Source: an uncultured bacterium (GTDB taxonomy: Bacteria > CAIWAD01). Taken from it: a DNA stretch of 64,000 bases. The notes beneath the pieces are model-generated. The model was not told where the DNA came from, did no database searches, and saw only the letters and a program-made list of their open reading frames with translations. Shown one piece after another: positions 3,035-8,380 of the stretch. A program made the translations under genes and the position numbers. The DNA is taken from positions 1 to 64,000 of the forward strand of contig CAIWAD010000158.1 of the NCBI GenBank assembly GCA_903910645.1, written 5' to 3'. How positions within the stretch are numbered: the stretch's first letter is position 1; the number at the start of each line of letters is the position of its first letter.

Positions 3035-5290
3035 TCAGGCCGTGGGCATGCCGGGTGGCAAAGGCTGGCTCAACAGCTGAAGGTGTCCTTCGGCCACGGC
3101 CACATGAATCTGCAGGGCCCCGCCGGTGGAGGCCAGAATCTCCTCATTCACCCGCTCCGCCACCAATTCCTCGAACTTGCGGTCCACATTGCGCGCGCTC
3201 AAATCCTGACGGGCGCCCTGGCGGGCCACCCACTGGGGAACATCCTCGCCAATGGTCAGGCTGTGACCCAGGCGCGCCACCTTGCCCTGGAATGCGGGCA
3301 TGATGCGCTCTTGCAGGATGCGCAGGAGGTCCTGCTCCTTCAAGGGCTGGAAGACCACCAGCTTGTCCACCCCGCGCAGCAGCTCGCCGGCAAAGTAATC
3401 CGCCACCTGGTCCGCTCCCAGGCGTTCCGCGTCCGGACTCTGGAAGCCCATGCCGCCTTTCTGGTCCATGCCAATCAAATCCGAGAGCAGCACCACGGTG
3501 GTGTCGCACACCGCCAACTGCTGACCCGATGCATCCTTCAGGAAACCCTCTTCAAAACTCTTCAGGAAGAAATGCATGATCTCCCCCGAGGCGTACTCGA
3601 TGTTCTTCAAAATCAGCACGCGACGGGGTTCGGCACGCAAGCGCTCCAGCACGGTGGGCGAGGGATAGCCCCCTTCCGCCTGGGCCCCGCGACCGGTGAT
3701 CAGTGCCATGCTCTCAGCGTCCTGGAACTCGCTCATGTCCACCAGGAAAGGGTCCCGGTTGTAGAGGATGCGTGACAGTTCCGTGGCGAAGAGCTGCTTG
3801 CCCACGCCGGCTGGCCCGGCAAAGAGGAAGACACCATCGGGCCGCTCCGGGTTCAGATCCAGATCGCTCTTGGTGAAGCGGATGGTGCGGCAAACCTCCT
3901 GGATGGCGGCGTCCTGGCCGATGATGCGCGCGCTAAGCAGCTCCTCCAGCCGACTGAGCCGCTCCTGCAAATCCGGAAAGGCGTTTTCGTCCCGCCCGGT
4001 AATGCGCCCCAGGGCCATGCGCAGCACCACCTCCCAGTCCGGCGGGGTCTCGTCCTCCGCCAGAGCCAGAATGGACAAGGCCACATCCAGCAGCACCAGC
4101 GCCTTCTTGGGGAACTGCATGGTGCGCACATGCTCGTCGGCCATTTCAATCAGACGACCAAGTTGCGAGGCGGACAGGCTGACCGCGTACTGCTCCTCGA
4201 ACTTGTCCTTCACCTCCTCCAGGATGGCCAGCACATCATTGCGGGTGAGCGGCTTCACATACAAGGGCGCCAGCAGCTCATCAAAGACAGGATTGCTGCG
4301 CACGATGCGGTTGTAGAAGTCCACATCCGCCACCACCACAAAGTGAAGCTTCTTGTATTTGAACATGCCCAGCAGACGCTGGAGGAAGTCCTGCACCACG
4401 GGGGATTCCGTGGCAAACCAGTGGTGGAAGCTGTCCAGCACCAGGATGATCTCCGGGTGCTGCTCCAGGAAGCGGCGCAGCACATCGAAGCGGCCCGACA
4501 AATCCTGCTGGCTCTGCACATCCTTCAGGAAGACATCCCGGGAGAACTCGAAGAAGCGTTTGCCGCTGAAGATGCACGGCACGCGGCCGGCGGCGGTCTC
4601 CTCGATGAGGCGCCGCAGCACCATGCTTTTGCCCACGCCAGGCTGGCCGTAGATGAGCAGGTTCTGGCGGTAGCGCCTTACCAGCACTTCCATGGCGGCG
4701 CGACGATATTCGGGATAGGGCAGCAGGCCCTTCATGGGATCGTCCCCGAAGCGGCGGTTCAAATCCAGATCCGCTGCGAACATGGCGCGCAGGAAGGTGG
4801 CGGCGCCGTCGCCCTTGCGCTCCAATTGAACTCCCAGCTTCTCAAGAGGCACCGGATAAAGCTGGTTCCAATTGTAAAGGAGCAATTGGAGCATGCCATC
4901 GGCGTCCAGCTCCTCCTCGCCCTGCTCCTGCTCCCAACTGGCCAGCACGCTAAGCACGGTGTCGTCCGGCGGAGGCTGCAGGCTGGACAGGGCCTCGCGC
5001 AGCTCCTCCAGCTCGTCCTCCTCGCTCTCGGCCACGGCATCATCTCCCCGCGCGGCCTCCTGGGCGGCCACGGCGGTGGAGGATTGGGTGAAGTGGCTGA
5101 GCAGGGCCTGCCGATGCTCCTCATTCTTCAACAAACCCTGCCAGAGTTCGGCCAGGGTCTCCGCGCCAAGGCTGGCCATCATCAGTTCCGGCAGGCCGAA
5201 ATCCACCCGCTTGTGCGCGCGGGCAGCCAGGGATGCTTGCTGGAACCAGCTTTGAAGATCCGTGCTGAGCTGCATGGAAGGGCCTTTCAC
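3035..5290 (-). CDS. Clp/Hsp100-like protein with two AAA+ modules, catalytic motifs degenerate
   Basis: Clp-N-like N-terminus, GQPGVGKS (D1) and GPAGVGKQ (D2) P-loops, ClpB D2-like FLVDMSEF, VVFQPL and GAR segments; Walker B and Arg-finger positions diverged. Confidence 0.8.
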   Translation of the reverse strand: MKGPSMQLSTDLQSWFQQASLAARAHKRVDFGLPELMMASLGAETLAELWQGLLKNEEHRQALLSHFTQSSTAVAAQEAARGDDAVAESEEDELEELREALSSLQPPPDDTVLSVLASWEQEQGEEELDADGMLQLLLYNWNQLYPVPLEKLGVQLERKGDGAATFLRAMFAADLDLNRRFGDDPMKGLLPYPEYRRAAMEVLVRRYRQNLLIYGQPGVGKSMVLRRLIEETAAGRVPCIFSGKRFFEFSRDVFLKDVQSQQDLSGRFDVLRRFLEQHPEIILVLDSFHHWFATESPVVQDFLQRLLGMFKYKKLHFVVVADVDFYNRIVRSNPVFDELLAPLYVKPLTRNDVLAILEEVKDKFEEQYAVSLSASQLGRLIEMADEHVRTMQFPKKALVLLDVALSILALAEDETPPDWEVVLRMALGRITGRDENAFPDLQERLSRLEELLSARIIGQDAAIQEVCRTIRFTKSDLDLNPERPDGVFLFAGPAGVGKQLFATELSRILYNRDPFLVDMSEFQDAESMALITGRGAQAEGGYPSPTVLERLRAEPRRVLILKNIEYASGEIMHFFLKSFEEGFLKDASGQQLAVCDTTVVLLSDLIGMDQKGGMGFQSPDAERLGADQVADYFAGELLRGVDKLVVFQPLKEQDLLRILQERIMPAFQGKVARLGHSLTIGEDVPQWVARQGARQDLSARNVDRKFEELVAERVNEEILASTGGALQIHVAVAEGHLQLLSQPLPPGMPTA

Positions 5291-5590
5291 TTGGGGCGTG
5301 CTGTTCCCAATCTAACATGAACATGCCTGCTTCCGACCTCTGGAAAGGCTGGTGGACAGGTTCAGGGGATCCGCCAAAAGCGGCCTGGGCAGGCCAGGTG
5401 AAGGAAAGGGGCCGGGCATTCCCTGCGTGAATGGTCCATGCCATCCCGCAGCCTTGCCAGGCCCATCCGCAGAACTCGTTCAATCTCAACAAGTGAACCA
5501 ATGGTTTCAGCGCCGGCTTGCGGGATCAAGCGCCGTTTGGGATGCTGGAAGAGCGTCCCGGCACGGTGCCGCGGATGTGGAAAGGACAAG

Positions 5591-8376
<2,786 letters not shown>

Positions 8377-8380
<4 letters not shown>

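Follow-up and report, generated by a model that had tools for sequence, protein, structure and literature searches.

A ClpA/ClpC-type tandem AAA+ protein with dismantled catalytic sites, conserved among relatives of an uncultured bacterium, and its possible link to ClpP

A protein with the two AAA+ modules of an Hsp100 unfoldase, in both of which the catalytic motifs are degenerate, raises the question of whether its gene is simply broken or whether the protein is maintained for something other than motor activity. Such a protein, which we call pseudo-Hsp100, is encoded in the stretch of DNA analyzed here (64,000 nucleotides of contig CAIWAD010000158.1, assembly GCA_903910645.1, from an uncultured bacterium; hereafter, the window). 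The gene lies where the preliminary description had placed it (3035..5290), with the correction that it is on the minus strand. It runs from a GTG start at 5290 to a stop codon at 3035-3037 and encodes 751 aa; with 0 internal stops, the frame is intact, as had been claimed. An alternative ATG start at 5275 is where the orthologs begin.

To which branch of the Hsp100 proteins does it belong? Pfam models matched at residues 206-421 (AAA_22/AAA_lid_9) and 483-721 (AAA_2, with a weak D2-small match), and PDB and Foldseek matches span both modules, giving the tandem Clp-type AAA+ layout of Hsp100/Clp class I. Sequence matches in the PDB were ClpB, ClpC, and ClpA chains (E down to 2.5e-48), and the best NCBIfam model was ClpA (TIGR02639; E=1e-56); judged from both, Hsp100 homology is far above chance. 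The ClpA score was 192.5 bits against a curated cut-off of 993, which leaves the protein outside the ClpA equivalog family. An AlphaFold2 model built from five sequences (pLDDT 76) had a pTM of 0.44, so that its domain arrangement is unsure; its best fold matches were ClpC-ClpP complexes, and it also matched ClpB and ClpA. The N-terminal helical region (residues 6-165; 4796..5275, minus strand; pLDDT 58) had no Pfam Clp_N match, and its best Foldseek matches were ClpB/Hsp104 N-domains, with probabilities of 0.95-0.99 but, for this low-confidence model, E of 0.14 or worse; it is probably a diverged, weakly assigned Clp N-domain. The ClpB-type comparison made in the preliminary description holds for the tandem AAA+ architecture and is otherwise loose, since the length, the lack of an M-domain, and an MGF loop place pseudo-Hsp100 on the ClpA/ClpC side. 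By its sequence, then, it is a ClpA/ClpC-type tandem AAA+ protein (Hsp100) with the catalytic sites dismantled in both modules.

The register of the motifs was checked by alignment against 32 canonical Hsp100s. Those quoted previously for D1 (GQPGVGKS as Walker A, ILVLDSFH as Walker B, DELLAP for ERRF) and for D2 (GPAGVGKQ, VLILKNIEYA, and LLRGVD for FINRID) were all present and aligned as claimed. In D1, Walker A (residues 215-222; 4625..4648, minus strand) is intact within the genus; two more distant orthologs (G003, G004) read GSGRH/GSGRS, with the P-loop Lys changed to Arg. D1 Walker B, IILVLDSFHH (residues 281-290; 4421..4450, minus strand), has Ser at residue 287 in place of the catalytic Glu. 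This position reads S, G, G, Q, and D in five orthologs and Glu in 31 of 32 canonical rows; the Walker-B Asp is retained in 4/5 orthologs. All five orthologs have E-L or E-W instead of the D1 Arg pair and Asp in place of Thr322 of the sensor-1 region.

The second module is altered as well. D2 Walker A, FAGPAGVGKQLF (residues 490-501; 3788..3823, minus strand), keeps Lys498 and has Gln at residue 499 instead of Thr/Ser (Q, Q, K, Q, and R in the five orthologs). D2 Walker B, VLILKNIEYAS (residues 558-568; 3587..3619, minus strand), carries Lys-Asn for Asp-Glu at 562-563, a change found in 4/5 orthologs, as is the replacement of the sensor-1 Asn by Asp. The Arg-finger region reads LLRGVDKL (residues 637-644; 3359..3382, minus strand; canonical FINRIDEI), without Arg at aligned position 640. 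The "GAR sensor-2-like" element of the preliminary description (residues 692-694) proved to be out of register: in the alignment, sensor 2 falls at residue 700. The window protein has SAR there, and orthologs include SGQ, SAS, and NAH (R, R, Q, S, and H at the Arg site across the five). Pseudo-Hsp100 thus lacks the full set of catalytic Walker A/B, sensor, and Arg-finger residues of Hsp100 class I; the Walker-B Glu is absent from both modules in all five orthologs, and the replacement residues at the lost sites are largely common to them.

The loops that contact substrate and ClpP have fared differently from each other. At the D2 pore loop site (canonical GYVG) the aligned segment reads GRGAQAEGGYPS (residues 533-544; 3659..3694, minus strand) and is shortened in distant orthologs; the substrate-gripping loops KYRG (D1) and GYVG (D2) are both lost in the five orthologs and in three other degenerate groups described below. 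At the position of the ClpP-docking loop, by contrast, an MGF tripeptide is kept (residues 614-616; 3443..3451, minus strand) within a flexible loop (pLDDT<50). The orthologs read MGF, IGF, MGF, MGF, and VGF, aligned with the IGF/MGF of ClpC, and G615 and F616 are the sole invariant residues between T598 and F633. The tripeptide has the [LIV]-G-[FL] form of ClpP-partner unfoldases, Met in first place being found also in canonical Clp rows, and ClpC of these genomes themselves has IGF/MGF at this position. ClpB makes no use of ClpP, and the ClpB rows have no such tripeptide, which argues that the fold does not require it. The loss of both pore loops, the Asn-to-Asp change at D2 sensor 1, and the retained MGF are features that the preliminary description did not contain.

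Is this a decayed gene? A full-length ortholog was found in 5/5 genomes examined of the phylum (the window genome included), with identities to the window protein of 74 and 69% in the same genus, ~45% in the same family, and ~31% in another family (locus L051, Candidatus Delongbacteria). Within the genus, NG86 dN/dS for pseudo-Hsp100 was 0.22-0.31, on a par with the neighboring radical-SAM and aroB genes (0.25-0.43; ClpC, 0.15-0.17). Conserved orthologs, conserved replacement residues, and these ratios together rule out simple decay. Canonical DE and GKT motifs, which would have pointed to error or strain-specific loss, were looked for in the orthologs and found in none of the five. A pseudogene, or an assembly or sequencing error in one strain, is accordingly very improbable: nothing besides the motif losses themselves speaks for it, and five genomes from separate assemblies, with intact frames under purifying selection, speak against it. 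The earlier reading of a pseudo-unfoldase rather than a pseudogene is therefore upheld by five orthologs lacking both Walker-B Glu and the D2 Thr, by the purifying selection, and by a canonical ClpB elsewhere in the genome, found along with a canonical ClpC. The same loss kept in every relative found, together with similar proteins in at least two other lineages, indicates that pseudo-Hsp100 is probably a maintained non-motor regulator; it may be a "scaffold, adaptor or regulator", as first put forward.

Apart from ClpB and ClpC, the window genome has one high-scoring ClpP, adjoined by a ClpX-sized AAA gene that we take, from its position and size, to be ClpX. All genomes tested have a canonical ClpP. 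A partner of the ClpS type was considered and set aside, as ClpS was not detectable in 15 genomes. Around the pseudo-Hsp100 gene, the order aroQ-aroB-rpmB-pseudo-Hsp100 is kept in genus and family. The rpmB gene (ribosomal protein L28; 2726-2911, plus strand), which at ~61 aa is easily missed, stands between aroB and pseudo-Hsp100. An operon with aroB was ruled out, as rpmB intervenes in the opposite orientation, convergent with pseudo-Hsp100, which thus appears to be transcribed alone. On the other side, a gene for a radical SAM protein fused to DUF2344 (5438-8377, plus strand) is divergent from it. No neighboring gene that would tie pseudo-Hsp100 to ClpP was seen.

Comparable proteins occur beyond the phylum. 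When the ortholog profile was run over 386 genomes across the domain, the orthologs scored 1045-1349 bits and the next protein 276. The top-scoring protein outside the phylum in these genomes was a TPR-fused canonical Hsp100 (G056, L083); it shares an RPDG box (NPERPDGVFLF) ahead of the D2 Walker A, but its N-terminus is TPR and its catalytic motifs and pore loops are all intact. The lesser profile matches and a second search yielded three further degenerate Hsp100 sets (15 proteins). With the five orthologs in the phylum of the window genome as group I, these are group II (6/7 genomes of one phylum; 610-630 aa, no N-domain), group III (six genomes of one family; ~742 aa), and group IV (three genomes of one family; no N-domain). 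Across 19 aligned degenerate rows of groups I-IV, the Walker-B Glu is present in 0/19 in D1 and 0/19 in D2, and the D2 Arg finger in 0/19; the D2 P-loop Lys and a ClpP-docking-type tripeptide ([VILM]-G-[FY]) are each present in 19/19. In group III, D1 is nearly normal (RRF, GKST in most, Asp in place of Glu) and might hydrolyze slowly. Groups II and IV are sister groups (support 100/99), and a single clade of all degenerate groups was not rejected (AU p 0.41). In motif-masked trees the groups fall near each other, weakly, and long branches warn of artifact; what they have is a shared pattern, not proven common descent.

The neighbors differ by group: rpmB/aroB in I, a TPR protein in II, an M23 peptidase in III, and a CvpA-like protein with infC-rpmI-rplT-pheS-like genes in IV. 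In group III (L136-L139) the M23 peptidase gene comes after the Hsp100 gene, in the same direction, in the four genomes compared. In group IV (L171-L173; G342, G213, G072) the gene sits between that for the CvpA-like membrane protein and the infC-rpmI-rplT-pheS-like genes in 3/3 genomes, these names being our presumption from the appearance of the sequences. Deriving a function from the neighbors was tried and set aside, since beyond the Hsp100 itself no gene is common to groups I, II, and III or to II, III, and IV.

What could such a protein do? For Clp proteins it is established that hydrolysis needs the Walker-B Glu and the Arg finger, and that pulling needs the pore loops. An AAA+ module without the first two should not hydrolyze ATP, and one without pore loops should not pull a chain. 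Catalytic inactivity of pseudo-Hsp100 is well supported by these absences, and it is very probably not a working unfoldase. The Walker-B roles are restated in a study in which engineered double Walker-B ClpC1 formed inactive mixed oligomers and jammed the Clp core (PMC7966870), and Clp ATPases dock on ClpP via IGF loops (PMC9035409). That the P-loop Lys and the ClpP loop are retained suggests a subunit held by nucleotide and docking on ClpP. We propose, at a little under an even chance, that pseudo-Hsp100 is a ClpP/ClpC-linked regulator that has lost hydrolysis and threading and kept the fold. It would bind nucleotide without hydrolyzing it and so remain fixed in a single state, much as engineered Walker-B "trap" mutants do. 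Its [MIV]GF loop, three residues in a flexible loop from which docking is predicted, would dock on ClpP, either as a ring of its own or, within mixed rings with ClpC, as a poison subunit; once docked, it would limit or redirect access to ClpP, while pulling substrate itself would be impossible. If a dead ring were to jam ClpP, harm would follow unless the protein were scarce or conditional. Arg fingers aid hexamer formation, so that without them pseudo-Hsp100 may not assemble into rings, and since group I also lacks the D2 Walker-B Asp and P-loop Thr, even Mg-nucleotide binding is uncertain. Extended to all groups, the proposal is more tentative: there may be a scattered class of natural non-hydrolyzing, non-threading Hsp100s, long kept in at least three bacterial lineages, that dock on ClpP or join rings of ClpC, with a regulatory effect on Clp proteolysis.

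Two other readings retain the protein as functional. It could be a non-catalytic Hsp100 scaffold unrelated to ClpP, whose N-domain and AAA shell bind clients or an adaptor and whose xGF loop is left over from an earlier role or makes a contact of another kind. A bacterial pseudo-ATPase that has lost its motor parts fits this, and the plant SMXL proteins set a precedent for Clp-derived proteins in other jobs, such as transcriptional regulation (PMC9133912). The N-domain, moreover, varies more than any other part, and groups II and IV have none, so different groups could have different partners. This scaffold is a credible possibility, though we would sooner doubt it than adopt it; it leaves unexplained why the ClpP-type tripeptide persists in 19/19 rows within an otherwise varying loop. 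It is also conceivable that one module is a slow, unorthodox ATPase that uses other acidic residues and works as a switch, not a motor. The GVGKS P-loop intact in the genus, the D1 Walker-B Asp in 4/5 orthologs, and group III, with its D1 Arg pair and Asp for Glu, are in keeping with residual activity, but the five orthologs have lost the D1 Arg pair (EL, EW) and all have lost Thr322, and in G003/G004 Arg replaces the D1 P-loop Lys, which makes it unlikely.

Set against known systems, pseudo-Hsp100 resembles ClpA (TIGR02639) and ClpC in its N-terminal helical region, two AAA+ modules, and D2 [LIVM]-G-F loop, and ClpA also in having no M-domain; it differs from them in lacking both Walker-B Glu, the Arg fingers, and both pore loops, with D2 sensor 2 lost in three orthologs. 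With the ClpB/Hsp104 disaggregases it shares the two modules and the superfamily, whereas it has neither an M-domain nor complete catalytic motifs and carries the ClpP-type tripeptide that ClpB lacks. Plant SMXL/D53 proteins (SMAX1; PMC9133912) are likewise Clp-derived tandem-AAA proteins diverted from the motor role, and the SMAX1 D2 gave a weak sequence match (E=3e-4); pseudo-Hsp100, unlike these, is bacterial, has no M-domain, and keeps the ClpP-type tripeptide. Engineered double Walker-B "trap" mutants such as plastid ClpC1-TRAP (PMC7966870) also lack both Walker-B Glu and keep the P-loop Lys and ClpP loop; pseudo-Hsp100 is natural and conserved, and also lacks the pore loops needed for holding substrates.

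We found no named family and, in the open-access literature, no paper describing such a bacterial protein. Kinases and proteases have well-studied pseudo-enzymes (e.g., plastid ClpR); for Hsp100 motors, no description of a bacterial counterpart was found in the same literature. If pseudo-Hsp100s do meet ClpP, bacteria would possess a natural counterpart of the "trap" mutants made in the laboratory, and it could then be tested by what means cells prevent such a subunit from poisoning proteolysis. If ClpP plays no part, the same residues have still been lost repeatedly while the same loop was retained, which is a natural experiment on the roles of the parts of an AAA+ ring.

Other Hsp100-like proteins were also observed. 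A separate canonical ClpA-like set (L089, L097, L104, L107) has GMPRGIVG as its D2 pore loop and a PLGF/PMGF ClpP-type loop. A 1139-aa Hsp100-like protein (L039, 4671-8090; G001:C59), seen in G001 and in no other of these genomes, has extra N- and C-terminal regions and intact D2 catalytic motifs (DEFEKAH, GTGKTE, FINRLD), but its D1 is degenerate (WRIQDL) and lacks the Arg pair.
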